From Candidatus Nealsoniibacteriota bacterium (lineage in GTDB: Bacteria; Patescibacteriota; Minisyncoccia; Minisyncoccales; GWA2-38-27): a stretch of DNA of 39,596 nt. Below are positions 7,125-27,833 of the stretch, in pieces (the first letter of the stretch is position 1; each line of letters starts with the position of its first letter). The notes beneath the pieces were generated by a model, which was not told the origin of the DNA, ran no database searches, and saw only the letters and a list, made by a program, of their open reading frames with translations. Location: NCBI GenBank assembly GCA_030617105.1, contig JAUWWC010000005.1:1-39596 (forward strand), given 5' to 3'. Position numbers and translations under genes: made by a program.

Positions 7125-7168
7125 TGCCTTCGGCAGAACCTTGATTCGCTAAGGTATAAATATATAAT
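7125..7168 (+). promoter_or_regulatory. Small hairpin and promoter (TTGATT-N16-TATAAT)
   Basis: CTGCC-TTC-GGCAG (7125-7137) forms a tight hairpin. TTGATT at 7141 and TATAAT at 7163 follow, with the start codon 11 nt after the -10, so the leader is only a few bases long. Confidence 0.6.
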
Positions 7169-9711: not shown

Positions 9712-11070
9712 ATGTCATTTAAGAATATTTTTAAATGTTTTCTTATTATTATTTTAGCTTTTTTTATAAGCTTAGGGATTTTAGTTTATGAACAAGTGCT
9801 GGAAAAAGAGATTTCTTTTATTTTTTCAGGAATAGAATTTCCAGAAATGGAGTTTCCTGAACAAGATGATTCAATTTTCCTTGAATTATTTGAAGATATA
9901 GGAGAAGAGTTTGTTTCCAATAAGACAGATTTTTTAAAAGTGAATCTTGCTGAAATGAAAATAGCTCTTTATAAAGAGGGTTTTTTAATAAAAGAGGCCT
10001 ATATTTTGACAAAAGGCAATAGTGATAACTGGGGAGGCTCAGCAGCTGGATTATACAGAATTCTATCTGGCAATAAAGCCAGTTTTTCAATTGGTTCAGG
10101 CGTTTATATGCCTTATGCGCTTCATTATTATGGAAAATACTATATTCATGGAATTCCTTATTATCCAGGAGGCGTTAAGTTTGATTCTTTATTTTCAGGC
10201 GGCTGTCTTCGTTTAAGCGACAAAGACGCAGAAGCTATTTATGAATTAAGTGATTTAAATATGCCTGTTTTAATTATAGATAAAGAAAGGGATAATTATG
10301 AGCATTCAAGAAAAGAAATAACAGAGTTTCCAGAACTTTCTGCTAAGAGTTATTTAATAGCAGACCTTGATTCAGGATATGTTTTTGCTGAGAAAAACTC
10401 TCTTCAGCCGCTCCCGATAGCTTCATTAACAAAATTAATGACAGCTGTAGTTGTGGCTGAAAACGTGAATTTAAAAAAATCTATTTTAATAAAAGAAAAA
10501 ATGCTGGAGGCCTATGGTTCTACTGAAGGATTAGAGCTTGGTAAAAGATTTAGAGTTGTGGAATTATTTTATCCTCTTTTAATAGAATCTTCAAATGATG
10601 TTGCTGAAGCGCTTAGCTATTTTTTAGGCCGGGAAAAGACCATTAAATTAATGAATGAAAAGGCCAAGTTTATTTTAATGAAGCAGACAGAGTTTACTGA
10701 TCCTTCTGGTTTTGACCCTGGAAACGTTTCTACAGCCAGAGACCTTTTTTACTTAGCTAGATATATATTTAATAATCGTCCTCCTATTTTAGAAATTACT
10801 AAAGGAAACAAGGTAAGGAGTTTTGGAGATATTAGTTTTGATATTGATAAACTCTGGAATAAGAATGTTTTTATCACTGATCCAACCTTTGTCGGCGGGA
10901 AAACGGGCTTTATTAAAGAATCTAAATACACTGCTGTATTTATTTTCCGTCTTCTTGATAAAGACGGCATAGAACATAACATAGCAATTATTCTTTTAGC
11001 AGCTCAAAGTAATAAAATTGATACTCAAAAAGCATATATGTGGCTTTTGGATAATTATTTTGTTCTTTAA
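9712..11070 (+). CDS. L,D-transpeptidase / D,D-carboxypeptidase fusion
   Basis: The 452-residue protein has an N-terminal membrane anchor (about 8-27), then two cell-wall enzymes. Residues 75-190 are a YkuD L,D-transpeptidase domain with H146 in YYIHGIP and the catalytic C165 in SGGCLRLS. Residues 210-450 are a peptidase S11 (DacA-type) domain with S238-x-x-K241 in ASLTKLMT, S293-x-N295 in ESSNDVAEA and K397-T-G in VGGKTGF. All catalytic residues of both domains are present. S11 enzymes trim the terminal D-Ala of pentapeptides; the resulting tetrapeptides are the donors for L,D-transpeptidases making 3-3 cross-links, so the two activities are sequential. The protein acts outside the membrane. 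The fusion order is unusual to my knowledge. Confidence 0.93.
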   Translation: MSFKNIFKCFLIIILAFFISLGILVYEQVLEKEISFIFSGIEFPEMEFPEQDDSIFLELFEDIGEEFVSNKTDFLKVNLAEMKIALYKEGFLIKEAYILTKGNSDNWGGSAAGLYRILSGNKASFSIGSGVYMPYALHYYGKYYIHGIPYYPGGVKFDSLFSGGCLRLSDKDAEAIYELSDLNMPVLIIDKERDNYEHSRKEITEFPELSAKSYLIADLDSGYVFAEKNSLQPLPIASLTKLMTAVVVAENVNLKKSILIKEKMLEAYGSTEGLELGKRFRVVELFYPLLIESSNDVAEALSYFLGREKTIKLMNEKAKFILMKQTEFTDPSGFDPGNVSTARDLFYLARYIFNNRPPILEITKGNKVRSFGDISFDIDKLWNKNVFITDPTFVGGKTGFIKESKYTAVFIFRLLDKDGIEHNIAIILLAAQSNKIDTQKAYMWLLDNYFVL

Positions 11071-12548: not shown

Positions 12549-13427
12549 ATGAAAAAGATATTCTTAGGAATTTTGCTTGGAGTAACTGTTTTAGCGATTT
12601 CTGGTATAGTCGCTGCAGCAATGCTTATTCCAGCAAGCGAACGGGCAAGAGAGAAATCAAAAGCAGATAATGCGCCAGTAATAGAGAGAGTAAAGGAGCA
12701 TAAGGAGCATCTTGTTTTGACCACTCCTGGTTTAGAAAAGATTGTTTTGATACATTTTGCAAAGCCTACATGCAATAATAATGAAATTTGTGAGCCAGAG
12801 CTCGGAGAAAATCCAAGTTGTGCTGACTGTAAAAATGGTGAAGAAGAACCTGAATCAACATGCTATGCATTCTTAGGAGCAAAATGGAAAGATTTACCAG
12901 TGGATTATGTTATAGACCCAATATTTTCTTCAGAAAAGAATCCAAATGGACTTCCAGAAGAGTTCGTTGTTAGTGCAATCTCAACAGGAGCAGAAGAATG
13001 GGATTCTCATACAATTGCAGAACTTTTCAATGATAGTTATGAAGTTGTTTCTGATGGAAGCTGGGATAGTGATGCTCCAGACGGCAGAAATGAATTGCTA
13101 TTTGGAGATTATCCCCAAGAGGGGGTAATTGCAGTAGCAATAGTATGGGGATATTTTAGAGGAAGACCAAGCAATAGGAGAATAGTTGAATTTGATATAA
13201 TGTTTGATACTGATTGGGTTTGGGGAGATGCAAGTATAAATTCAGCAGTAATGGATTTACGGAATATAGCAACTCATGAGCTCGGACATGGTGCTGGTTT
13301 AGATGATTTATATGAGACAGCTTGTCTGGATGAAACAATGTATGGTTATTCTGGTTATGGAGAAATAAAGAAAAGAGGTTTGAACACCGGTGATATTATC
13401 GGAATCCAAGAACTATACGGATTATGA
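12549..13427 (+). CDS. Matrixin-like secreted zinc metalloprotease
   Basis: The 292-residue protein has an N-terminal hydrophobic signal or anchor (about 5-27), a Cys-rich stretch (CNNNEICEPE to CADC) and a metalloprotease domain. The zinc site is THELGHGAGLDDLY from H243: HExxHxxGxxD, with Asp where matrixins have the third His, as in snapalysin-like enzymes. A Met follows in DETMYGYS, fitting the Met-turn. The WDSHTIAELF region and the GDIIGIQELYGL end are typical of this fold. It would cleave proteins outside the cell. Its stop overlaps the next start as ATGA, so it is translationally coupled to the DUF5667 gene. Confidence 0.88.
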   Translation: MKKIFLGILLGVTVLAISGIVAAAMLIPASERAREKSKADNAPVIERVKEHKEHLVLTTPGLEKIVLIHFAKPTCNNNEICEPELGENPSCADCKNGEEEPESTCYAFLGAKWKDLPVDYVIDPIFSSEKNPNGLPEEFVVSAISTGAEEWDSHTIAELFNDSYEVVSDGSWDSDAPDGRNELLFGDYPQEGVIAVAIVWGYFRGRPSNRRIVEFDIMFDTDWVWGDASINSAVMDLRNIATHELGHGAGLDDLYETACLDETMYGYSGYGEIKKRGLNTGDIIGIQELYGL

Positions 13428-15214
13428 GAAAAATATCTTTAATAGTAGTTTCATTGGTTTTGATTGGTTTTGTCGGGGGAGTTTTAGCCCAGGAAGTTGA
13501 GCTTTCAGACCCAGGCCTTACCCCTGATAGTCCATTCTACTTTTTGGAGATAATTTCAGAAGGGATTGGCACCTTCTTCACCTTTGGCGACCTTAAAAAA
13601 GCAGAGAGATATGCTGAACTTGCTGAAGAAAGAATTGCTGAGGTAAAAGCTGTTGTGGATAAAGGAAAACCAGAAGCAGCAGAAAAAGCTCTTAAAAGAT
13701 ATGAAGACCAATTAAGAAAAGCTTTAGCTCGAGCCGAAAGGGCAAGAATTAAAGGAGAGAGCATTGCCGAAGTTACTGAAGTTATAGCTGAAGGCGCCAA
13801 CAAGCATGTTCTGGTATTAGAAGAAGTATTGGACAAAGTGCCGGAAGAAGCAAAAGAAGCTGTAAAGAAAGCAAAAGAAGTTTCTATGAATGAACAGAAA
13901 AATGCTTTAAGAGCATTATCTACAGAAAACCCAGAAAAAGCTACTGAAATTAATCTAAAAGCAGCCGAAGCCAGATTAAATAGAGCCAAAGCAAAAGCAG
14001 AAGAAGGTGAAATCGAAGAAGTAGAAGAGGCCTTAAAGGAATTTGAGGACCAGTATAAATTCGGAGAAGAAATCTCTCAAATTGCTCAAGGATTAGGCAA
14101 AGACACAACTACTGTGGAACAATTAGTTGGAGAAGCAACTTCTATTCATTTGGAAGTTTTAGCTGATGTCTATGAAAAAGTTCCTGAACAGGCAAAACCA
14201 GCCATTGAGAATGCAATGGAAGTTTCGGCAAAAGGGCATCAAAAGGCAGTGGAGGCATTGAAAGAGAAAGATGCTTTAGGTGAGATTCCAGAGGAAATCC
14301 CTATGCCAGATAAAGTTCCAGAAGAAGTAGAGGAAAAGATTCAGGAAAAGATTAAAGAGGGAAAAGAAAAAGGGAAAGGAAAAGGAGAAGAACTTCCTTC
14401 TGTCTGGACAAGAGAGGGAGTGTTAATCCCTGGTGGTTACTGCGATCCAGAAGTTGTAAAATTACCTGATGGCAGATATAGGATGTATTACGGTTTAGAC
14501 CCGCGAACTTATCCTGAGGTTGCTATTATTAGTGCTGTCTCCTCAGGTGGTCTAAATTGGATCCCTGAATCAGGAATTCGTATATCTGGAGAAGCTATGC
14601 CTGCTATGCCTTCAGTAATTGAGCTGCCGGATGGCCGCTGGCGAATGTATTATTCTTCAGGAGGCATACAGTCTGCTATTTCTGATGATGGACTCAATTT
14701 TCAACAAGAAGGTCTTCAGCTAGCAAATTATGGTGATATTGTAGTCAGGAGCAGCACTGTAATTAGACTAGATGATGGAAGATATAGAATGTATTATTGC
14801 GAAGGCAAACAGCAACCCACTTGGCCAGTTCAAGTAAAAAGCGCAATATCTTCTGATGGATTGAGCTGGGAGATAGAACCAGGAATTAGAATAGATGGTT
14901 CAAAATCACCATTTTATGGGCATATCGATGGTCCGGATATAGTAAAACTTTCTGATGGCAGTTTCCGACTTTATTTTTGGTCAGGAAGCCCAAAACAAGA
15001 GAAAGAGAGGACAGGAGGGGTTTATATAACCGACTCAGTTGACGGCTTAAACTTTTCAAATATAACTCTTATTTTCGGAAGATTTACTGATGAAGAAGGA
15101 AGGAAAATACTCCCTGCTGATTCTTCAGTGGTCAAAATAGAAGAAGGTTGGAGAATGTATTGTGGTTCTGATTATGGGATATGGAGTGCAATAATTGCTA
15201 ATTTATTGCCCTAA
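13424..15214 (+). CDS. Secreted DUF5667 plus five-bladed beta-propeller protein
   Basis: The 596-residue protein has a signal peptide (to about VLAQ, residue 23). Residues 30-280 are helical and hold two DUF5667-like copies, each opening with a LxPDSPFYF-type or related segment and the AERYAELAEERIAEVK helix. A Lys/Glu linker leads to residues 325-596, a beta-propeller with repeated VVKLPDGRYRMYYG and SAISSDGLNW units, as in GH43/sialidase-like folds. I see no clear catalytic triad, so it may bind glycans rather than cleave them. The propeller is duplicated in the next gene. DUF5667 proteins are common exported proteins in CPR genomes. Confidence 0.82.
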   Translation: MRKISLIVVSLVLIGFVGGVLAQEVELSDPGLTPDSPFYFLEIISEGIGTFFTFGDLKKAERYAELAEERIAEVKAVVDKGKPEAAEKALKRYEDQLRKALARAERARIKGESIAEVTEVIAEGANKHVLVLEEVLDKVPEEAKEAVKKAKEVSMNEQKNALRALSTENPEKATEINLKAAEARLNRAKAKAEEGEIEEVEEALKEFEDQYKFGEEISQIAQGLGKDTTTVEQLVGEATSIHLEVLADVYEKVPEQAKPAIENAMEVSAKGHQKAVEALKEKDALGEIPEEIPMPDKVPEEVEEKIQEKIKEGKEKGKGKGEELPSVWTREGVLIPGGYCDPEVVKLPDGRYRMYYGLDPRTYPEVAIISAVSSGGLNWIPESGIRISGEAMPAMPSVIELPDGRWRMYYSSGGIQSAISDDGLNFQQEGLQLANYGDIVVRSSTVIRLDDGRYRMYYCEGKQQPTWPVQVKSAISSDGLSWEIEPGIRIDGSKSPFYGHIDGPDIVKLSDGSFRLYFWSGSPKQEKERTGGVYITDSVDGLNFSNITLIFGRFTDEEGRKILPADSSVVKIEEGWRMYCGSDYGIWSAIIANLLP

Positions 15215-16294
15215 ATGAAAACTAAAGTTTTAATTATCTTGATGGTTTTGATTGCCCTGGGCGTGGGAGGGTTTTTTGTTTATAAGAATGTTATTGCTCC
15301 CGAAGCAGAGGTTGAGGTTCTTCCTAAAGAAGAGGCCGAAGTTCCTCTGGTGGTTGAAGAGGAATTAGAAAAAGAGGAGGCGCCTGAGGAGAAAGAGGAA
15401 AAAGTGACGGAGGAGGAAGAACAACCCGAGAAGGAGGAAGAAGAAAAACTTCCTTCTGTTTGGACAATAGAGGGAGTGGTAATCCCTGGTGGTTACTGCG
15501 ATGCAGAAGTTGTAAAATTACCTGATGAAAGATACAGGATGTATTATGGTTTAGACCCGCGAACCTATCCTGAAAACATAAATATCGTTAGCGCTGTCTC
15601 TTCGGATGGTCTAAATTGGACTCCTGAGCCAGGGACTCGTCTTTCCGAAGGATTCAACTATGCTATGCCTTCAGTAATTGAGCTGTTGGATGGCCGCTGG
15701 CGAATGTATTATAATTCAGGTGGCATACAGTCTGCTGTTTCTGATGACGGGCTCAATTTTCAAACCGAGGGTCTCCGGTTAGCAACTAATCTTGTGGGTC
15801 CTACTGTAATTAGATTAGATGATGGAACATATAGAATGTATTTGCAGGATTGTGGCGAAGAAGTTGCTTTCCCTACTCCTCCTGCATGTCAAATAAAAAG
15901 CGCAATATCTTCTGATGGATTTAACTGGGACATGGAACCAGGAATCAGATTAGATGGTACAAAACCACCATTTTATGGTGCATTTATTAGTACCCCAAGT
16001 ATAGTAAAACTTTCTGACGGCAGTTTCCGGCTTTATTTTTTGGCAGGAAGTGAAAAATTGGATAAGGAGGGGATGGAGGGGATTTACAGCACCGATTCAA
16101 TCAATGGCCTAAGCTTTTCAAACATAACTTTTCTTTTTGGAAAATATATTGATGAGGAAGGAAGGGAAATAGGTACTGCTGATCCTTGTGCGGTTAAAAT
16201 AGAAGGAGGATGGAGAATATATTATGCTTCTGATTGTGGGCCTTATAGCACCGGCATTTCTAGCGCAGTCAGGGGAGCAATAAATAATGAGTGA
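15215..16294 (+). CDS. Membrane-anchored beta-propeller protein, paralogue of the previous gene
   Basis: The 359-residue protein starts directly after the previous stop. It has an anchor helix (about 5-25), a long Glu/Lys stalk, and a propeller from about residue 80 that matches the one in the preceding protein almost residue for residue at its start (LPSVWTxEGV, IPGGYCD, YYGLDPRTYPE). The DNA also matches closely there, so the duplication is fairly recent. Unlike its partner it has no DUF5667 region. It is probably surface-exposed and carbohydrate-binding by fold; an enzymatic role is not shown. Confidence 0.82.
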   Translation: MKTKVLIILMVLIALGVGGFFVYKNVIAPEAEVEVLPKEEAEVPLVVEEELEKEEAPEEKEEKVTEEEEQPEKEEEEKLPSVWTIEGVVIPGGYCDAEVVKLPDERYRMYYGLDPRTYPENINIVSAVSSDGLNWTPEPGTRLSEGFNYAMPSVIELLDGRWRMYYNSGGIQSAVSDDGLNFQTEGLRLATNLVGPTVIRLDDGTYRMYLQDCGEEVAFPTPPACQIKSAISSDGFNWDMEPGIRLDGTKPPFYGAFISTPSIVKLSDGSFRLYFLAGSEKLDKEGMEGIYSTDSINGLSFSNITFLFGKYIDEEGREIGTADPCAVKIEGGWRIYYASDCGPYSTGISSAVRGAINNE

Positions 16295-18703: not shown

Positions 18704-19081
18704 ATGAAAAAAACAACGTTATTTGTTATAATTTTATTATTAATGACTTTAGTTTTGATTGGGGGAGGGTGTTTTGAGAAGCCGAAACCCGAAGTTGAAG
18801 ATGAACCTGAAACCGGGATTGAACCTAAGCAGTCAGTTACAGGTTCAAGTTTTGAAACAGCTATTGTTATTGAAGCAGATAATACTGAGCAGGGAATTGT
18901 CAAAGAATATGAATGGTTGGCTTCCAATGCTTGTTTGGATAAAGATGGTGTGAGGGACCGGGAAATGCAGGAATTTCGGGAGTATAAAGGTCATAAGTAT
19001 GACTTGATGTATATGCTTTGCAACAATGGCGAGAAAGAAGTTTATTATTTCCAAATAGATAGCTTTTTTGGTAAGTGGTAA
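18704..19081 (+). CDS. Predicted lipoprotein, unknown function
   Basis: The 125-residue protein has a lipoprotein-type signal, MKKTTLFV then LVLIGGGC, with the lipid Cys at residue 23. Of the seven lipoproteins here this one is closest to the ordinary lipobox (Gly before Cys). The mature part is an acidic Pro/Glu linker then a small domain with two more cysteines (ASNACLDKD, MYMLCNNG), probably paired. It sits directly upstream of lspA, whose product would process it. Confidence 0.75.
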   Translation: MKKTTLFVIILLLMTLVLIGGGCFEKPKPEVEDEPETGIEPKQSVTGSSFETAIVIEADNTEQGIVKEYEWLASNACLDKDGVRDREMQEFREYKGHKYDLMYMLCNNGEKEVYYFQIDSFFGKW

Positions 19082-19088
19082 TGAAAGA

Positions 19089-19517
19089 ATGAGAACTAAG
19101 ATTCTAATATCTTTTGGTTTAGGTTTGATAGTTTTGGACAGATTAAGTAAATGGTTTGTTTTGAAAAACCCTGATTTATATTCAGGAAGATTTATTGAAT
19201 TAAAATTATTTAAGAATTCAGATTTATACTTTATTCCTTTAAATCCAATCTTTCTTAATTTGATAATTGGAGCAGTATTATTACTGCTTGTTTTTTTGTT
19301 CTTTAAAACTTTAAAACAAGGAAGCTTTTTATTAACACTTGGTTTTTCTTTGATTATTTTAGCAGGATTAAGCAACTTTTTTGACCGGCTATATTTCGGC
19401 TATGTCATTGACTGGATAAGAATCTTTATCCTCCCGATTTCTATTTTTAACGTAGCTGACGTAATGATCATCGGAGGAATCATATGCCTTATTTTTCATT
19501 TGATAAAATCCAAATAG
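19089..19517 (+). CDS. lspA: Lipoprotein signal peptidase (signal peptidase II)
   Basis: The 142-residue, four-helix membrane protein has the LspA hallmarks: D17-R-L-S-K21 in helix 1, N96-x-x-D99-R100 with GYVID108, and FN121-V-A-D124. D108 and D124 correspond to the catalytic aspartates. The family's usual NxGAAF motif after helix 1 is replaced by KNSDLYF: the Asn (N43) remains but the Gly-Ala-Ala is lost. That region shapes the substrate pocket. The enzyme removes signal peptides from prolipoproteins after lipid attachment. I choose ATG 19089 over the TTG at 19068 because the latter lies inside the previous gene. The 3' end overlaps lgt by 34 nt. Confidence 0.9.
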   Translation: MRTKILISFGLGLIVLDRLSKWFVLKNPDLYSGRFIELKLFKNSDLYFIPLNPIFLNLIIGAVLLLLVFLFFKTLKQGSFLLTLGFSLIILAGLSNFFDRLYFGYVIDWIRIFILPISIFNVADVMIIGGIICLIFHLIKSK

Positions 19518-20263
19518 GACCGATTATTCTTTATGTCTGGGGCGCATTCCTGGCTTTAGCTTTTTTATATGCCTTGTTTTTTGTTTTGGGAAAGGCAAAA
19601 AAAGAGGGGATTGATAAAGAATTAATTATTAGTTCTTTTTCCTGGTTAATAATCGGCGCAATTATTGGAGCAAGATTGGGCTATGTTCTTCAATTTTCAG
19701 ATTATTATTTTTCAAGGCCAGTTGAAATTCTGAAAATATGGCAAGGAGGAATGTGTTTTCACGGCGGCCTTTTTGGATTACTGATTGCTGCTGTTATTTA
19801 TGCAAAATTTGCCAAGGTTGGCTCAAGGTTATTTTTGCAAATAGCAGATTTAGCTGTTTTAGCAGCTCCTATATCTATTGCTATTGCCAGAATCGGCTGT
19901 TCCTTAGTTAATGATCATCAAGGAGCAGAAACATCTTTAGCTTGGGGAATTGTGTGGCCAGATGGAACAATCAGGCATCCAGTAGCTGAATATTTAATTA
20001 TCAGCGCTTTAATTTTGTATTTAATTCTAAGATTTTTAAGACCAAAATTTAAACAACCAGGCCAGTTATTTATTGCCTTTCTTTTTTTATACTCTCTTTC
20101 CCGCTTTTTCTTGGATTTCACCCGTTCTTTTGGCACTCTTTTGTCTGATCCCCGTTATTGGGGGTTATCCACAGCCCAATGGTTATCTTTGGCAATAATT
20201 TTAGGTATAATGATAAAAAAGGTTTTTTTCAAAAAAAGGTCGGAACTTAGCATAAAATACTAA
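19484..20263 (+). CDS. lgt: Prolipoprotein diacylglyceryl transferase
   Basis: The 259-residue polytopic protein matches Lgt in length and motifs: GARLGYV after helix 2, CFHGGLFGL (the HGG signature), ARIGCSLVNDHQG (corresponding to GRxGNFxNxExxG, with N to C and E to H changes), HPVAEY, FFLDFTRSF and a final STAQWLS. It attaches diacylglycerol to the lipobox Cys of prolipoproteins in the membrane, the step before LspA. The start has a good GGAGG ribosome site 6 nt upstream, within lspA, unlike most neighbours. With lspA it forms a maturation pair inside a cluster of lipoprotein genes. Confidence 0.93.
   Translation: MPYFSFDKIQIGPIILYVWGAFLALAFLYALFFVLGKAKKEGIDKELIISSFSWLIIGAIIGARLGYVLQFSDYYFSRPVEILKIWQGGMCFHGGLFGLLIAAVIYAKFAKVGSRLFLQIADLAVLAAPISIAIARIGCSLVNDHQGAETSLAWGIVWPDGTIRHPVAEYLIISALILYLILRFLRPKFKQPGQLFIAFLFLYSLSRFFLDFTRSFGTLLSDPRYWGLSTAQWLSLAIILGIMIKKVFFKKRSELSIKY
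20235..20242 (+). promoter_or_regulatory. AAAGGTCG motif within the end of lgt
   Basis: It lies inside the last codons of lgt and ends 31 nt before the next ATG at 20274. TAAATT follows at 18 nt, 7 nt before the ATG. Confidence 0.45.
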
Positions 20264-20273
20264 ATTATTTATT

Positions 20274-20720
20274 ATGAAAAAAACAAAATTTTTTATTCTA
20301 TTTTCACTTTTAGCGGTTTTGGTTTTAATTGGAGCAATGTGTACAAAAAGTCCTGAAGCCTTTTATAAGAAACTTTGCAACACTTCTATAGATTTTTCAG
20401 AAGAGCTGGAGGATGTTCTTGATCAAGAGTTTTATTTGACAGAAACAGAAGAGGATTTAGACGATTGTATTGATGATATGATTGAACAAGAAGAAGATTT
20501 ATATGATGAATGCATGGACGAGGAGGATGATGAGGACATATGTGATGAAGCGATTGAAAACTACAGGTTAAGCATAGGAAGCTTTCTTACTCGTCAAGGA
20601 TGTTTGATTATTTACACTTCTTATTGCTCTATGCATCAAGCAACCGGGGACTATGAGGATTTTAATGAATGCGTGGACGACGTAAACGGGCTCTGTAAAA
20701 CACTTCCAAGATCATTTTAG
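20274..20720 (+). CDS. Cys-rich acidic predicted lipoprotein
   Basis: The 148-residue protein has the cluster's shared signal, MKKTKFF to LVLIGAMC, with Met just before the lipid Cys (residue 23). The mature part is very acidic (runs such as EEDLDD and DEEDDED) and holds eight further Cys, several spaced in helices (C-x(8-17)-C), likely forming disulphides. The pattern suggests a small helical Cys-stabilised domain. Family not recognised. It follows lgt by 10 nt. Confidence 0.72.
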   Translation: MKKTKFFILFSLLAVLVLIGAMCTKSPEAFYKKLCNTSIDFSEELEDVLDQEFYLTETEEDLDDCIDDMIEQEEDLYDECMDEEDDEDICDEAIENYRLSIGSFLTRQGCLIIYTSYCSMHQATGDYEDFNECVDDVNGLCKTLPRSF

Positions 20721-20739
20721 AAATTAGAAACTAAAGATT

Positions 20740-23361
20740 ATGAGAAAACTTATATTTGTCATTTCGATTTTGCTTTTGGCTGTTTTGGTTTTACCTCAAA
20801 ATGCATATGCTGGCACTTTATCTGAAGATATTTTCCCAAAGACCGTAAAAGGACTTCCTTTAGCTGAAATTGAAAAGCAAAAGCCAGAAGGAGAACTTGC
20901 TGAGGCCTATTGGGCTTTTTACGGAACTGATGATTCAGTAACAGAAATTCTTGTTTTCTTTTCCAGAATAGAAGGTGAAGAATATCTTAGAACAGCAGTA
21001 CAGGATTTTATTACAGGATTTGAATATGAATCTGTTCAGACATTTGATAATGTTGAACGTGAAGGCCCAGATGAGGTTTATGTAAAAGATTATAAAGCTA
21101 CGGTTGTTACTTACCGCTTTTATTACTTAGGAATATATTTTGATGCTGGCCTTGCTTTAGTGGTTGTTGATGATTATTTCATTGCTGTTGAGATGCTTAG
21201 TTATACTGGAGAACCTCCTTCTTTATCAGACCTAAAAGATGTTTTAGGTCTTTTTATTGATCAGGTTCCTGGAGAACAACCAGTTTGCGGCAATACTTAT
21301 TGCGAACAAGGAGAAACCTGCTCAAACTGTGCTCAGGATTGCGGTGCTTGCCAGGAGCTTTTACCTGATTTAGAAGTTTCTTTTTCAGAAAAGAACATTA
21401 AGCTTGAATTAGGAGGAGGCACTACTCTTAAGATTAATATTAAAAATATTGGTCAAGGCAAGGCTGAAGATGTTTACTATACAGTTCATGTTGACAAGCC
21501 AGAAGTTGTAGATGTTTATCCTTTGGAGTACAGAATAGGGAATTTAGACCCGGGAGAGGAGTTTAGTGATTACATAGGTATTGCAGTTAAGGGTTCAGGC
21601 ACTGCCTATTTAGCTATTCATATTAGAGGTGATAATATTGGCAGCATAATGAAGTTTATTCAGGTTAGTGTTCCTCAAGCAGCTGCTTTAGATGTACCAG
21701 AGTCCTTGTTTTTATTACCAGGAGAATCCCAAGGAATCAGTGTTTTCTTAACCAATGCTGGGATAGAGCCAATTCTGGTTGAGGTTTTATCTTTAAAAAG
21801 CTTGAATCCTTCAGTGGTTTCTATTGAAGAAGGTTCAGAAATGACAGTAGCAGGCCAGGGGGATGGAATTAGGCAGGACCAGGTTATCAGCACTGAAAGC
21901 ATTGATATTACTAATGCTATTTATCCAAAACCAAGAATTAAAGCTAATTCAATAGGAGATACTGAACTTGTTTTCAAGCTTTTATACTATTTCCCAGAGA
22001 TTTCTATGTATGAGGGCAAGACATTGGAAAAGAGAGTAAAAGTAGGAGTAGGAGAGTCAGTAGGAGGGGAAAAGCCAGGATTAGAAGTTAAGCTAAAGCC
22101 GTCTGGCCTGGCTGTAGAAAGGGATGAGGCCAGGAGGGTTGAAGTGATTTTAAGCAATACTGGAAGCGAGGTAATTAAGCAGGGAAAGATTGAGCTTAGC
22201 GTTTCCAGAGAAGCTTCATTTAATGCAACCAGAGAAATAACTTTTGGTTTTATCAGACCAGGCAGGGAAGCTAAAGCTGAAATTGAGATTATTGGTCATC
22301 CCCAGTTTCCATCTGGATTGCAAGGCGATGACTTAGTAGCTACCGGGACCTTAACATTTAAAGGCCAGTTTACTACTTTGGATGACAGAGAATTTACTTT
22401 TGAAAAGGAAATGAGGGTTTCTTTAGTAGGAGAAAGAGAGAAATGTGATGCTGCAAATGCTGGATGCATGGAAACAGTTGATTGTTTTGTTTCTCTTTCC
22501 AATGAAATGGGCTGCGCTCTTGAGTTTGCAGATGTTGTTCCATATTTTGACAAACCAGTAGCTGTTGTCTTAGCTACTTCTGATGTCTGCGAGATAAAAG
22601 AGAGAGTAGAGACAGGAGATCCTATTGGAGCTGCTGTATCTACTCTTTTGATGAGTGTTGATTTAGGAGATAATGCTCTTGATGCAGTTCCCGGGGCAGG
22701 CAATATATTGGGTGTTTTAATAGACATAATAGAAGGTTCAGTAGACTGCGTTGAAGGATTTATTTACGATGCTGTAAATGATTACTGCGCTGGAGGCAAA
22801 GGAGGTTATACTGGCTGCGCTAATCGTTTATTTGGATTAATTGCTGAAGAATCAGACAGGTGGAAAGAAGCAAGGTCAGCTACGCATTCAGTAGTAGCTA
22901 TTGGCGGCTCGCCAATAAGATTATCTGTAATTGATGATAAAGGTCAGGAATTAGGTTTGTCTGACGGGGTCTTAGTTATAGAAAAAGAAGATTTGAAGCT
23001 GGTATTTATTAAGAATCCTGAAGACTTAGACAATGGGTATAACTTCCAGATTAATGGAATTGGTGAGGGCACTTATGATTTAGATATTGGCTTGATTTCT
23101 GATGGAGAGGTTGTTGAAACAGTTGAATTAAGAGACCAGGAAATTAATTTAGATGAGGAAGTTTCAATTCCTTTGGCTGTTAAAGCAGAAGGTGGCGAAT
23201 TAACTAACTTATTTGTTGGTGATGAGGCAGTAGAATTTAAAGAAAAACAGGCAGGAAGATCAATAATTCTCTATATAATAATTGGAATAGCTGCTGTTCT
23301 GGTTATTGCTATTGCTGTTGTCGTCGTTATAGTTTTAATCAAGAAAAAGAAAAAAACTTAG
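20740..23361 (+). CDS. Large surface protein with CARDB-type domain and C-terminal anchor
   Basis: The 873-residue protein has a type-I signal peptide (cleavage after AYA, about residue 24). The next 170 residues form an unknown alpha/beta domain. A Cys module follows (CGNTYCEQGETC, CAQDCGAC), then a CARDB-like Ig-type domain (LPDLEVSFSEKNIKLELGGGTTL) and at least two further beta domains to about 560. A Cys-containing helical region lies at 575-700 and another beta region follows. The C-terminus is a membrane helix plus KKKKKT, so it is anchored with most of its mass outside. CARDB and similar domains mediate adhesion. This is the largest gene here and probably a structural or adhesive surface protein. 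Confidence 0.82.
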   Translation: MRKLIFVISILLLAVLVLPQNAYAGTLSEDIFPKTVKGLPLAEIEKQKPEGELAEAYWAFYGTDDSVTEILVFFSRIEGEEYLRTAVQDFITGFEYESVQTFDNVEREGPDEVYVKDYKATVVTYRFYYLGIYFDAGLALVVVDDYFIAVEMLSYTGEPPSLSDLKDVLGLFIDQVPGEQPVCGNTYCEQGETCSNCAQDCGACQELLPDLEVSFSEKNIKLELGGGTTLKINIKNIGQGKAEDVYYTVHVDKPEVVDVYPLEYRIGNLDPGEEFSDYIGIAVKGSGTAYLAIHIRGDNIGSIMKFIQVSVPQAAALDVPESLFLLPGESQGISVFLTNAGIEPILVEVLSLKSLNPSVVSIEEGSEMTVAGQGDGIRQDQVISTESIDITNAIYPKPRIKANSIGDTELVFKLLYYFPEISMYEGKTLEKRVKVGVGESVGGEKPGLEVKLKPSGLAVERDEARRVEVILSNTGSEVIKQGKIELSVSREASFNATREITFGFIRPGREAKAEIEIIGHPQFPSGLQGDDLVATGTLTFKGQFTTLDDREFTFEKEMRVSLVGEREKCDAANAGCMETVDCFVSLSNEMGCALEFADVVPYFDKPVAVVLATSDVCEIKERVETGDPIGAAVSTLLMSVDLGDNALDAVPGAGNILGVLIDIIEGSVDCVEGFIYDAVNDYCAGGKGGYTGCANRLFGLIAEESDRWKEARSATHSVVAIGGSPIRLSVIDDKGQELGLSDGVLVIEKEDLKLVFIKNPEDLDNGYNFQINGIGEGTYDLDIGLISDGEVVETVELRDQEINLDEEVSIPLAVKAEGGELTNLFVGDEAVEFKEKQAGRSIILYIIIGIAAVLVIAIAVVVVIVLIKKKKKT

Positions 23362-23382
23362 CCCCCTAAGTTTTACAAAACT

Positions 23383-23859
23383 ATGTCTAAGTTTAAATTT
23401 ATTATTCCAATTTTGCTTTTGGTTAGTTTAGTTTTGGTTGGGGCTGAATGTGGAGAAGAAAGTAAAGGCAAAAAAGTAAAAATTGAAGAAATGGGCTATG
23501 ATGAAGAAGGAAACAGAATTCTTTTGGAGGAGCCAGAATTAGAATGCTGGCCAATTGGTTCTGAAGTTGGGCCTTGGGATAGTTCGGAAGAAGAAGTTAC
23601 AACTATTTTTGGAGTAGATGCAATTCAAAAATGCAAAAGCTTGGAGTGCAAAACCCCAGAAGGAATGGAATGGATGACAGTTGTTAATTATTTTAAAGAC
23701 AAAATGGAGCCTTTGGGCTGGGAAAAAGATTCCGGCCAGAATATTTATTATTCTGATTGGCAGACATTTACTGTTTGGTATTTTGGCTATAATAAGAAAA
23801 AACAACAAGGTTATAAATTAGAATACTGCGATGTAATACCAAAAAAGGACTTAGAATAA
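23383..23859 (+). CDS. Predicted lipoprotein with Glu before the lipid Cys
   Basis: The 158-residue protein has the shared signal MSKFKF to LVLVGAEC; Glu precedes the Cys at residue 23. The mature domain has VNYFKDKMEPLGWEKD and a QTFTVWYFGYN strand, a pattern also seen in the protein at 16378, suggesting a common small alpha/beta fold that I cannot name. Two Cys (IQKCKSLEC) are close together. It lies 21 nt after the large surface protein and 4 nt before a TolB-like lipoprotein. Confidence 0.7.
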   Translation: MSKFKFIIPILLLVSLVLVGAECGEESKGKKVKIEEMGYDEEGNRILLEEPELECWPIGSEVGPWDSSEEEVTTIFGVDAIQKCKSLECKTPEGMEWMTVVNYFKDKMEPLGWEKDSGQNIYYSDWQTFTVWYFGYNKKKQQGYKLEYCDVIPKKDLE

Positions 23860-23863
23860 AACT

Positions 23864-25081
23864 ATGAGAAAAACAAAATATATTTTTATATTTATTTTAT
23901 TAATTACCCTGGTTTTGGTTGGAGCAATATGTAAAAAAGAAGAACCCTTAGAAAGAGAAGAGGGTTTTGGTTCTCCATTTCAGGGCGAAAAGAAAATTAC
24001 TCAAATTACTCAGAATAGAATTAGAGATCTTAGTCCCAGAGTTTCTGGCGACGGCAAGACAATTATTTTTTGGAGAGATACAGATAAAGATAATTATTGG
24101 GATACCTTAGTCCTAACCGATCCTGATGGAAAAGAAAAGAAAACAATTAAAATCAGAGGGGATGTTTTTACAGATAAATTCGGCATCAAACCTGAATCTT
24201 TAGATATTGACCATAAAGGCAATAAAGTTGTTTTTATAGGCACTCCTTTTGTTGAAAATTGGCGTTTGGTAGATCCTATGCCGGAATATTTCTTTGTCCT
24301 TGATTTAAATGCAGAAACAGCAAGAAAAATAGATCCTCATGATCTTCCAGAAAAGCATTATCCTCCAGAAGATGATGCTGAAAGAGCTTGGCCATCGTTT
24401 ATAAAGATAAGCCCTGATGGTTCAAAAATCGCTTTTACAGCCGATGTTACTGGAGTTGATTTTGGAGAGAGGCATGATGCTCCAACATTAACAGATGATA
24501 TAGTGGGCGTGGTAAATTCAGATGGCACAGGATTAAGAGTTTTAGAAAAAGGAATTAATGGGTACTGTTTGGCAATTGATGATTCCGGAAGAGTATTCTT
24601 TGCTCGGACAATAGCAAAATATAAATGGACTTTAGCTGTGGTTGATTTTGAAGGAGGATTAGAAAGCGGTAGAAGCCTTGGTATTGAAATAAAATGTCCT
24701 ACTAATATAGAAGGGATTTCAATAAGCAAAAACGGAAAAAGGATTTCAGGCGCTTTGGCTTCAGGGGGGATAGTTTTTGTTGCTAATGACCAAGGTGGAA
24801 TTATAGCTCAAAGCCATGATTTTACTTTCTCAATGATTACTGGAGATGGAGCAAGATTATTGGGTTTTGAAACAAAAATGGATTTAAAACCAGAACAAAG
24901 AGGTCTTATTTATTATGATATTGACAATAATTTAGAACAAGAGGGCCAGGTTTTGGATATGACTTATAAAATTCATAGTCCAGGCATAGATGTTAGTTAT
25001 TCCGGAGGAGTAGTTGTTACTGCAATTTATGATAAAGAACACGGCGGCGAAGAAATCGTCACTATCTATTGGGAGAAGTAA
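23864..25081 (+). CDS. TolB/WD40-like beta-propeller lipoprotein
   Basis: The 405-residue protein has the shared signal MRKTKYIF to LVLVGAIC (Ile before Cys). The rest is a six- or seven-bladed propeller of the TolB/PD40 kind: repeated units such as ISPDGSKIAFT, VSGDGKTIIF and ISKNGKRISG. No enzyme motif is visible, so a binding role is likely. The next gene is a tandem paralogue with a nearly identical signal-peptide DNA sequence. Confidence 0.82.
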   Translation: MRKTKYIFIFILLITLVLVGAICKKEEPLEREEGFGSPFQGEKKITQITQNRIRDLSPRVSGDGKTIIFWRDTDKDNYWDTLVLTDPDGKEKKTIKIRGDVFTDKFGIKPESLDIDHKGNKVVFIGTPFVENWRLVDPMPEYFFVLDLNAETARKIDPHDLPEKHYPPEDDAERAWPSFIKISPDGSKIAFTADVTGVDFGERHDAPTLTDDIVGVVNSDGTGLRVLEKGINGYCLAIDDSGRVFFARTIAKYKWTLAVVDFEGGLESGRSLGIEIKCPTNIEGISISKNGKRISGALASGGIVFVANDQGGIIAQSHDFTFSMITGDGARLLGFETKMDLKPEQRGLIYYDIDNNLEQEGQVLDMTYKIHSPGIDVSYSGGVVVTAIYDKEHGGEEIVTIYWEK

Positions 25082-25082
25082 T

Positions 25083-26222
25083 ATGACTAAAACAAAATAT
25101 ATTTTTATATTTATTTTATTAATTACCCTGGTTTTAGTTGGGGGTTTATGCGAGGAAAATGGAGACAAAAATGGTAAGGTTTCCAGAAAAAAAGGAATCT
25201 TTACTTTGGCTGAAACCGGGGTGCCATCTAGTAAAGATAGTTTAAAAGTAAGCGCAGACGGTCATGTAGTTTATTTCTTTGATTCTGATGGAAATGGGAA
25301 GACAGATAGTATAGTAGTGAGCGACCCAAATGGAAAGGATAAGAAAACAATTAAAATTAAAGGCGGCTTGCTTGAATCTAATGTTCAAATAGATGATTCA
25401 ATAATGGCTGTTGATGATAAAGCTTCAAAAGTAGTTTTTTCCGGCACTCCTCCTTCGGCAAGAGGAGAATACGGCGGTGAAAAGCACTTGTATGTTTTAG
25501 ATGTTGATAGCGAGAACGTAAAAAAACTTCCTAACCAAGATTTATCAGAGCAGTTTAAAGGAGCTGGCTGGGCAGATTCTGCAGCAATTTCAATTAGTTC
25601 AGATGGTGAAAAAATAGTTTTTGGTGTTCGGCTTTGGGGAATTGATTTTGGAATGGCAGTAGATGTTGCTAATGCAATCGCTGTTATAAATTCAGATGGA
25701 ACAGGTCTTAAAGTGTTGGCAGAAAAACTGTCCGTAGATAAAGAAGAAGAGAATGTAAACGTATATATGGTTGGAATTGATAATTCTGACAGAGTATTCT
25801 TTGCTAAGGAACAAAGTAAATATAATTGGGTTTTGTATGTAATTAATGCAGATGGTTCTGGAGAAAAAAACCTTGGAGTAAATATCAACACTGGTAAGAT
25901 TTCAGTTAGCAGCAATGGAAGGGTTGCTGGAACTTTAAATGAAAAAGATGATCCAGCTTTTGCATCTGATTCTAATGGAAAGATTTTAGCAAAAGGCGGC
26001 AACCCATGGGGAGGTGTAGAAATTAGTGAAAATGGAAAAAAGGTTTCATCAGCAGAATGGGATGAGGGTTTATTTCTGTATGATGTAGACAATAATTTTG
26101 AAAAACAGAATGTTTTAGATAAGTCATATGGCAATTGTAGTGTTCATGATGTTGATAATTCAGGCCAGGTTATTGCCTGCAGGATTAATAAAACCGGAGA
26201 AGTTATAGTTATTGTAAAATAA
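25083..26222 (+). CDS. TolB/WD40-like beta-propeller lipoprotein, tandem paralogue
   Basis: The 379-residue protein starts at ATG 25083, one base after the previous stop; the longer frame from 25014 lies inside the previous gene. It has the signal MTKTKYIF to LVLVGGLC (Leu before Cys) and propeller blades (VSADGHVVYFF, ISSDGEKIVFG, VSSNGRVAGTL). Blade 1 matches the upstream paralogue (DPxGKxKKTIKI). The signal-peptide DNA of the two genes is identical over a long stretch while the mature parts have diverged, which suggests conversion or strong constraint. Confidence 0.82.
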   Translation: MTKTKYIFIFILLITLVLVGGLCEENGDKNGKVSRKKGIFTLAETGVPSSKDSLKVSADGHVVYFFDSDGNGKTDSIVVSDPNGKDKKTIKIKGGLLESNVQIDDSIMAVDDKASKVVFSGTPPSARGEYGGEKHLYVLDVDSENVKKLPNQDLSEQFKGAGWADSAAISISSDGEKIVFGVRLWGIDFGMAVDVANAIAVINSDGTGLKVLAEKLSVDKEEENVNVYMVGIDNSDRVFFAKEQSKYNWVLYVINADGSGEKNLGVNINTGKISVSSNGRVAGTLNEKDDPAFASDSNGKILAKGGNPWGGVEISENGKKVSSAEWDEGLFLYDVDNNFEKQNVLDKSYGNCSVHDVDNSGQVIACRINKTGEVIVIVK

Positions 26223-26223
26223 T

Positions 26224-26583
26224 ATGGGTAATTCAAATGTAATTGGTTATTGGGAAGCTAAAGAAGTAGATGCAGGAGATGGTTATGGGCAGAATATAAA
26301 GGGGAGCCTGGCTTTGGGCAGGAATGAAATAATCTTTTATAGAAATAAGTTTTTTTCTGGAGGTACGAAAGAATGGAGAAGAATACCAATTAGAGGAATA
26401 AAATCTATTTATAGGACACCAATTCTTAATTTGGTTAGTATTAAATATAATAAAAAGCCAGAAAAAACAGGATTCTTTTCCAGGATTTTTAATTCAAAAA
26501 CAATTTCTTATAAAATAAAAGATTGGCAGTCATTTATTGAAAATATTAGGAGATTAAACCCCAACATTAAAATCAAGTGTTAG
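26224..26583 (+). CDS. PH-like-domain cytoplasmic protein
   Basis: This 119-residue protein has no signal or membrane helix, unlike its neighbours. Its strand pattern (SLALGRNEIIFYRNK, WRRIPIRGIKSIYR, NLVSIKYN) and final helix WQSFIENIRRLNP look like a PH-like barrel capped by a helix, as in bacterial bPH domains. Its role is unknown. It begins one base after the previous stop, so it is co-transcribed with the lipoprotein genes. Confidence 0.6.
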   Translation: MGNSNVIGYWEAKEVDAGDGYGQNIKGSLALGRNEIIFYRNKFFSGGTKEWRRIPIRGIKSIYRTPILNLVSIKYNKKPEKTGFFSRIFNSKTISYKIKDWQSFIENIRRLNPNIKIKC

Positions 26584-26589
26584 AAAACA

Positions 26590-27207
26590 ATGTCTAAATT
26601 AAAGTTTATTTTTGTTCCATTAGTTTTAATAAGTTTGGTTTTAATTGGAGCCACTTGCGGGGAAGAAGAAAGAAAAAAGGGTAAAAGAGAAGAAAAACAA
26701 GAAAGATTGCTTGAAAAGACATTAACCAGTGCTGAAATAGAAGATGTTTTAACCCAGACAGGAGCTGATTTGGGCTGGGGATCTGTAGAAATAATATATA
26801 TAAAGGAGCAAAAGGCTTTTTATGTAGAAAGATGGATAGAGGCGACTAATTGGGGAGAAAGCTACACCTGTCTGGGAATTGTTGATTTCTTAGATTATTC
26901 TGATGAGGATTTCAGCGGTATGGTCAAGGGTTCTACCAGAGAGACATTTATTAAGAAATTATGCCAGCTTATTTCTGCTGATGATCCTTCAATGGAGACT
27001 GAATCGCTTAGGATATCAGGATTTGAAGCCTGTTATACAGCAGATGAACCTTATCCAGAAGATTATGAGACTATAACTAGGGCCTTGGTTGGAAATTATA
27101 ATGTGTCAGTTGAACATTGGAATGATACAAAAGGAGAACTGCCTCTTTTAGATAGCAGAACTATCATAAAGGTGTTGATTGATAATCTTGTTAATGTTTT
27201 AGAGTAA
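26590..27207 (+). CDS. Predicted lipoprotein, unknown function
   Basis: The 205-residue protein has the shared signal MSKLKF to LVLIGATC (Thr before the lipid Cys), then a Lys/Glu/Arg-rich linker and a mature domain of about 150 residues. This contains two Cys pairs at some distance (SYTCLGI, KKLCQLI, FEACYTA) and ends in a helix IIKVLIDNLVNVL. I do not recognise it. Confidence 0.7.
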   Translation: MSKLKFIFVPLVLISLVLIGATCGEEERKKGKREEKQERLLEKTLTSAEIEDVLTQTGADLGWGSVEIIYIKEQKAFYVERWIEATNWGESYTCLGIVDFLDYSDEDFSGMVKGSTRETFIKKLCQLISADDPSMETESLRISGFEACYTADEPYPEDYETITRALVGNYNVSVEHWNDTKGELPLLDSRTIIKVLIDNLVNVLE

Positions 27208-27214
27208 ATTATAT

Positions 27215-27222
27215 AAAGGTCG
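27215..27222 (+). promoter_or_regulatory. AAAGGTCG motif upstream of the PsbP-like lipoprotein
   Basis: It ends 26 nt before the ATG at 27249; a TGTAAA stretch lies just before the start. Confidence 0.5.
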
Positions 27223-27248
27223 GGAATTTAGTAATTTTTGTGTAAATT

Positions 27249-27833
27249 ATGAATAAATTAAAATTTGTTATTCTTCCATTGCTTTTAATAAGCTTGGTTT
27301 TGGTTGGAGCTTGGTGTGAAGAAGAATCAAGCCGTAGGTCTAGAAGAGACAGGGGCGAGCAGGAAGAAGAAGAGGAGGAGGAAGAAGAAAATTATTTAAC
27401 TTATAAAAGCGCAAAGTGGGAGTTTGAGATTAAATATCCAGAGGATTGGGAAAAAGAAGAAGAAGATTATGGCCCTAGTGAATTTGCAGTGGTTTTTCTT
27501 ACTCCGCCTGAAGATGAAGATGATGAAGCTAAAGAAAACCTTCTTGTTTATGCGTCAACGGCTCAGCCTGATGACTTTGATGAATTAATGGCAGGTTTGA
27601 TAGCAGATTTGTCAGGAGATCCTTCTGTAACCTTTCTTGGTTCTTCAAAAATAATGATATCTGGATATCCAGGATATAAAGCGAGTTATATCTATGATGA
27701 TATTCGGTATTTACATTATTTCATAAATGCAGGCGATACTTGGTATCAAGTACTTTATGTTGCTTTAGAGAGCACTTATTCCAAATATTTAGACCAAGCT
27801 GAAACAATGATTGATTCTTTTGAGATTAAGTAA
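27249..27833 (+). CDS. PsbP-like-domain lipoprotein
   Basis: The 194-residue protein has the shared signal MNKLKF to LVLVGAWC (Trp before the lipid Cys, the most unusual case), an Arg/Glu linker with a Glu run, then a domain resembling PsbP/PsbP-like folds: YKSAKWEFEIKYPEDWE at the start, ISGYPGYKASY in the middle and a final ESTYSKYLDQAETMIDSFEI. This fold is common in bacterial surface lipoproteins of unknown role. An AAAGGTCG motif lies upstream, and the gene for the zinc-ribbon protein follows after 3 nt. Confidence 0.78.
   Translation: MNKLKFVILPLLLISLVLVGAWCEEESSRRSRRDRGEQEEEEEEEEENYLTYKSAKWEFEIKYPEDWEKEEEDYGPSEFAVVFLTPPEDEDDEAKENLLVYASTAQPDDFDELMAGLIADLSGDPSVTFLGSSKIMISGYPGYKASYIYDDIRYLHYFINAGDTWYQVLYVALESTYSKYLDQAETMIDSFEIK

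Follow-up and report, generated by a model that had tools for sequence, protein, structure and literature searches.

We describe a cluster of predicted lipoprotein genes on a contig of a Candidatus Nealsoniibacteriota bacterium (GenBank assembly GCA_030617105.1, contig JAUWWC010000005.1). The window analyzed is the entire contig (C17, 39,596 nucleotides or 39.6 kb), part of a Patescibacteria genome of 543 kb that is 96% complete. Between positions 18704 and 27833, nine of 11 successive plus-strand genes encode the signal peptidase II LspA, the prolipoprotein diacylglyceryl transferase Lgt, and seven small proteins bearing near-identical export signals. The cluster thereby forms a self-contained lipoprotein island, since it includes the two processing enzymes along with nearly all of the substrates recognizable in the genome. 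Within the lipobox, no position is regarded as more restricted than the one just before the lipidated Cys (position -1), and lipoprotein predictors depend on it. Judging from the signals of the window and of a sister species, we think that this biogenesis island probably carries a dedicated pair of Lgt and LspA and that, in this genus, the substrates of the pair have escaped the -1 rule.

Export signals and the residue before the cysteine

An earlier note, made by a model from the letters of the window, had listed seven signals ending in L-V-L-(V/I)-G-(A/G)-x-C, in which the Cys is preceded by G, M, E, I, L, T, and W. All seven plus-strand open reading frames (ORFs) exist, and the -1 residues, seven different ones, are as it gave them. 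Read from their ATG starts, the signals take the form ...L-x-x-L-V-L-(V/I)-G-(A/G)-x-C; residue 23 is the Cys in 7/7, position -2 is Ala or Gly, and position -3 is Gly throughout. A degenerate version of the pattern, (L/F)-(V/I/M)-(L/F)-(V/I/M)-G-(A/G)-x-C, has seven matches in the 543-kb genome, all of them on the plus strand of this cluster, and the reversed pattern, used as a control, has none genome-wide. The same seven are retrieved by a scan that is free of any lipobox (charged start, hydrophobic run, Cys, hydrophilic follow-up). Outside the island there is one clear lipobox, MGSGC on a Band 7 protein of contig C15, and FAGC, close by, may be another; contig C12 (58 kb) consists of N in the stretches examined, and the genome lipobox scan covers the readable remainder. 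The chains that follow the Cys are charged and of low complexity, resembling lipoprotein tethers. The seven signals look paralogous, with 42 to 61 of 69 bases in common, and are therefore not seven independent inventions.

In reviews, the lipobox is written [LV][ASTVI][GAS]C, with the Cys becoming residue 1 (PMC8689077, PMC8048626). Much of the island resembles such a canonical Lgt/LspA system, including the charged start, the hydrophobic core, the invariant Cys, the charged flexible tether, and the presence of the enzymes in the cluster. The position of the Cys is also canonical, as it closes a signal within the usual range of 16 to 26 residues in all seven proteins. However, the residue at -1 appears unrestricted, being Gly, Ala, or Ser in 1/7 signals of the window and 2/12 of the genus, and position -3, canonically Leu, Val, or Ile, is Gly in all 12 genus signals. 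The earlier note had proposed that -1 alone was freed and the motif otherwise kept. This holds for the free -1 and the constrained Cys, but the box also deviates at -3.

The sister species (same genus, locus L038; Candidatus Nealsonbacteria record CSMAG_2698) has E, M, S, M, and D at -1. The count of 2/12 for the two species of the genus contrasts with Gly in 8/8 signals, one of them with a damaged start, from three other genomes that carry such an island (Fisher p = 0.0007). Five lipoproteins can be paired between the window and the sister species, one pair, that of the gene at 26590, being strongly diverged and of uncertain orthology. The -1 amino acid differs in 4/5 pairs (G-E, I-M, T-S, and W-D), whereas the changes in the Cys codons (TGC/TGT) and in the -3 Gly codons (GGA/GGG) are all synonymous. 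Given the usual divergence of these proteins, four or more differences at -1 would be expected by chance with a probability of 0.004 to 0.02. The ratio of nonsynonymous to synonymous substitution rates (dN/dS) is 0.19 to 0.30 for the lipoproteins that are clear orthologs. Purifying selection acts on both enzyme genes, whose dN/dS is about 0.2 (0.18 for lspA and 0.20 for lgt, between the window and the sister species). Since the Cys changes only synonymously and the enzyme genes have low dN/dS while -1 changes, the enzymes and the Cys have been kept and the -1 residue has not.

Other Patescibacteria have signals with the same L-V/I-G-A/G run before the Cys ([LMF][VIM]G[AG]GC). Convincing signals with the L-V-G-A-x-C pattern all carry Gly (17) or Ser (2) at -1, and the pattern matches with other residues there are not lipoprotein signals, apart from one ambiguous case (L214). 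This comparison is indicative only: the -1 codon had some part in the choice of the 40 phylum regions, and the -3 Gly is built into the pattern, which leaves only the -1 residue usable. About half of these 40 regions hold real signals, and the 30 pattern loci returned automatically from across the phylum hold none. A lipobox survey covering 37 genomes of the phylum that have LspA, in 40 stretches of at most 20 kb each, yielded three plausible lipoproteins, all canonical, which is too few. One further member of the Patescibacteria (G119; L194-L197) has five GAGC lipoprotein signals and no PF01252 match.

The processing enzymes and the distribution of the island

Islands of this kind are rare among the relatives. 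An lspA gene (PF01252) is present in 5/247 genomes of the order, of which 178 are at least 90% complete, and in about half of the sampled genomes of the phylum. The island's own LspA model matches 58/384 genomes of the class, all of them weakly except the window. Among 80 relatives, lgt scores above the cutoff only in the same five lspA genomes, directly after lspA in each, and in all five, similar lipoprotein signals lie behind the two genes or on either side of them. The five genomes are spread over four families, and at least three of them come from the CSMAG set. At 134 and 281 kb, two of the island-bearing contigs have a length that makes a binning error unlikely. One of the genomes (G038) carries two islands; in the second (L042:11104-11460), lspA is broken by an internal deletion, accompanied by an intact lgt and two lipoproteins. 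Far outside this group, the complete chromosome of a Pacearchaeota archaeon (DPANN; CP061211.1) encodes a bacterial-type LspA (L055:9713-10177; PF01252, 85 bits) and, elsewhere in the chromosome, an Lgt (191.6 bits). Archaea are not generally known to have LspA or Lgt.

The lspA gene lies within the cluster, as the earlier note had it, and so does lgt; both genes are intact. The lspA product, read from ATG 19089 and not from TTG 19068, matches PF01252 (Peptidase_A8) with 66.4 bits against a curated cutoff of 25. Its AlphaFold2 model is of high confidence (pLDDT 92.8; an earlier model built from five sequences was poor, with a pLDDT of 52), shows four helices plus a beta-cradle, and matches Staphylococcus aureus LspA (6ryo) in Foldseek with a TM score of 0.83 (E 3e-8). 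The window LspA has the same fold as the LspA structures of S. aureus (6RYO) and Pseudomonas aeruginosa (5DIR), and it shares with them the catalytic Asp pair (here D108/D124) and 12/14 highly conserved residues of a published list (PMC6952399). It differs from them in the remaining two, with loop Gly54 replaced by Asp45 and Gly102 by Ala92. We rejected the change of Gly102 to Ala as the cause of the free -1, because the sister species keeps Gly there yet is also free at -1. In the sister lspA (L038:8820-9250), the loop that joins helices 2 and 3 is lengthened in frame by some 20 residues. This insertion is made of a short dispersed repeat, also found at L038:536-583 and at 7130-7151 of the window; a second insert, with an inverted repeat, lies between lspA and lgt in the sister species.

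The lgt product matches PF01790 with 163 bits. The Lgt of the window and that of the sister species have the sequence FHGGL, and the His is absent in the other islands. In the islands with Gly fixed at -1 (G030, G038, and G071; L040, L041, L042, and L043), Lgt is missing a stretch of about 19 residues together with this His of HGGL, which is essential in Escherichia coli Lgt.

Possible routes of signal processing

How, then, might these signals be processed? A Nealsonbacteria-type cell would export the seven small proteins via Sec, the local Lgt would attach diacylglycerol to the invariant Cys, and removal of the signal would fall to the local LspA. Relatives without the island are without both enzymes. 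We infer the lipidation of the Cys, LspA as the cutting enzyme, and the position of the cut. In this genus, the Lgt/LspA pair would no longer need a small residue at -1. What the pair recognizes may instead be the hydrophobic stretch L-x-x-L-V-L-(V/I)-G-(A/G) together with the lipidated Cys, so that -1 drifts freely. Several points weigh against this account. With an ordinary cut site, LspA would have to tolerate Trp, Glu, or Asp beside the catalytic pair. In known LspA, -1 adjoins the catalytic Asp residues, and Trp, Glu, and Asp would be expected to be poor there. We found no LspA substitution that clearly separates the genus with the free -1 from the Gly-fixed islands, and the genus is sampled by just two genomes, whose signals share ancestry.

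A different cut position would place the -1 residue outside the recognition site. LspA could cleave earlier, with one or two residues left ahead of the lipidated Cys (V/I-G-A/G↓x-C or L-V/I-G↓A-x-C), so that the mature protein begins x-Cys or A-x-Cys. If the fixed positions -5 to -2 are the true box, the freedom at -1 follows directly, and these positions do read as a canonical box once the register is shifted, with Leu at -5 and Gly at -3 in 12/12 signals, Val or Ile at -4 in 11/12, and Ala or Gly at -2 in 12/12. The L-V/I-G box would have slid off the Cys via a V-G-A-G-C intermediate. That sequence, the Gly-fixed form, is valid in both registers, hence a step-wise path, and in the one signal where -4 is Asn, -1 is Ser, which suits the normal register better (a single case). 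However, LspA is reported to cleave directly before the lipidated Cys (PMC8689077, PMC8048626), and overall we consider a displaced cut unlikely. Somewhat less likely again is that signal peptidase I (SPase I) makes the cut V/I-G-A/G↓x-C, with the Cys lipidated or otherwise used and LspA acting on other substrates. The genome encodes this enzyme (PF10502, 158 bits), and the CARDB protein in the island and other proteins of the window bear signals of the SPase I type. In addition, V/I-G-A/G would suit a cut placed one residue ahead of the Cys, where small residues are wanted at -3 and -1 of the cut, and V-G-A conforms to the small-x-small rule for SPase I sites. Yet SPase I processing needs no Cys, and here the Cys is invariant in 12/12 signals, with a codon that changes only synonymously. 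In these signals, no polar c-region separates the hydrophobic core from the cut, lspA and lgt adjoin these genes and are under selection, and the readable genome holds just one other clear lipobox protein.

The earlier note read KNSDLYF in the window LspA in place of the NxGAAF motif, and proposed a local LspA adapted to a different lipobox. Our alignment likewise puts KNSDLYF at the NxGxAF position. The motif lies in a mobile extracellular loop beside the substrate pocket, where changing Gly54 to Pro inactivates S. aureus LspA (PMC6952399), and Asp at this Gly position is found in the window genome alone among 41 LspA. However, an altered loop, KN[STP][DNK]LYF, is common to the LspA of all five islands, whatever their -1, and in three of these every signal carries -1 Gly. 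At the Asp position, the LspA of the sister species has Asn, like other Patescibacteria LspA (the Gly is Asn or Phe in 7/36 LspA of other sampled genomes, mostly Patescibacteria). The co-variation between the LspA motif and -1 that the note suggested looking for across related genomes is thus not there, and its refuting case, a normal motif with a free -1, was not seen among the compared genomes. We therefore regard KNSDLYF as an improbable cause of the free -1. What stands from that proposal is that the signals have the look of lipidated ones and that the local Lgt/LspA pair appears to serve them. Coincidence, with the proteins not being lipoproteins or useless signals decaying neutrally, is hardly credible: all seven box matches fall within one island against zero for the control, the Cys and Gly are conserved, and the clear lipoprotein orthologs have the low dN/dS given above.

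Gene content of the island and its meaning

The seven lipoprotein bodies are mutually unrelated or weakly related and, beyond a PD40 and a PsbP-like domain, mostly without family (Table 1). The ORF of lipoprotein 5 has a TTG upstream, at 25014; its ATG at 25083 keeps the common geometry.

Table 1. Genes of the lipoprotein island, in window coordinates.
Gene or product	Position	Strand	Features
Lipoprotein 1	18704..19081	+	125 aa; signal end LVLIGGGC, -1 Gly; sister ortholog -1 Glu
lspA, signal peptidase II	19089..19517	+	142 aa; 3' end overlaps lgt start; PF01252
lgt, prolipoprotein diacylglyceryl transferase	19484..20263	+	259 aa; PF01790, HGGL retained
Lipoprotein 2	20274..20720	+	148 aa; LVLIGAMC, -1 Met
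Secreted CARDB protein	20740..23361	+	873 aa; C-terminal membrane helix; ordinary SPase I-like site NAYA-G, without lipobox Cys
Lipoprotein 3	23383..23859	+	158 aa; LVLVGAEC, -1 Glu
Lipoprotein 4	23864..25081	+	405 aa; LVLVGAIC, -1 Ile; WD40-like PD40 repeats (beta-propeller)
Lipoprotein 5	25083..26222	+	379 aa; LVLVGGLC, -1 Leu; signal shares 61/69 bases with lipoprotein 4
Signal-less protein	26224	+	119 aa
Lipoprotein 6	26590..27207	+	205 aa; LVLIGATC, -1 Thr
Lipoprotein 7	27249..27833	+	194 aa; LVLVGAWC, -1 Trp; PsbP-like domain; sister ortholog -1 Asp

Elsewhere in the window, a single protein (9712-11070) joins L,D-transpeptidase (YkuD) and D-alanyl-D-alanine carboxypeptidase (S11) domains. 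Two adjacent proteins (13424-16294) have a common repeated module, IPGGYCD.EVVKLPD.RYRMYYG, and the first of them starts with DUF5667; relatives of these repeat-module genes occur near the G030 and G038 islands.

Among known systems, the spirochete lipobox (SpLip, Leptospira/Borrelia) is like that of the island in being a broader box that general predictors overlook. In Leptospira, however, -1 is described as the position under the tightest constraint, usually filled by Ser, Asn, Gly, or Ala (PMC2063517), whereas -1 in the island includes charged and bulky residues. In the open-access literature, we found nothing relevant on Patescibacteria lipoboxes and no report of a lineage with a free -1. 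Predictors that depend on -1 would miss 6/7 of the lipoproteins described here. If the cut is displaced, the mature lipoproteins would bear one to two additional residues ahead of the lipid anchor. The island appears to show a lipoprotein system persisting in compact form where the lineage has otherwise lost lipoprotein processing. With about seven natural substrates linked to the enzyme genes, and with the nearest islands Gly-fixed, this genus is a natural experiment on what LspA requires of its substrates.

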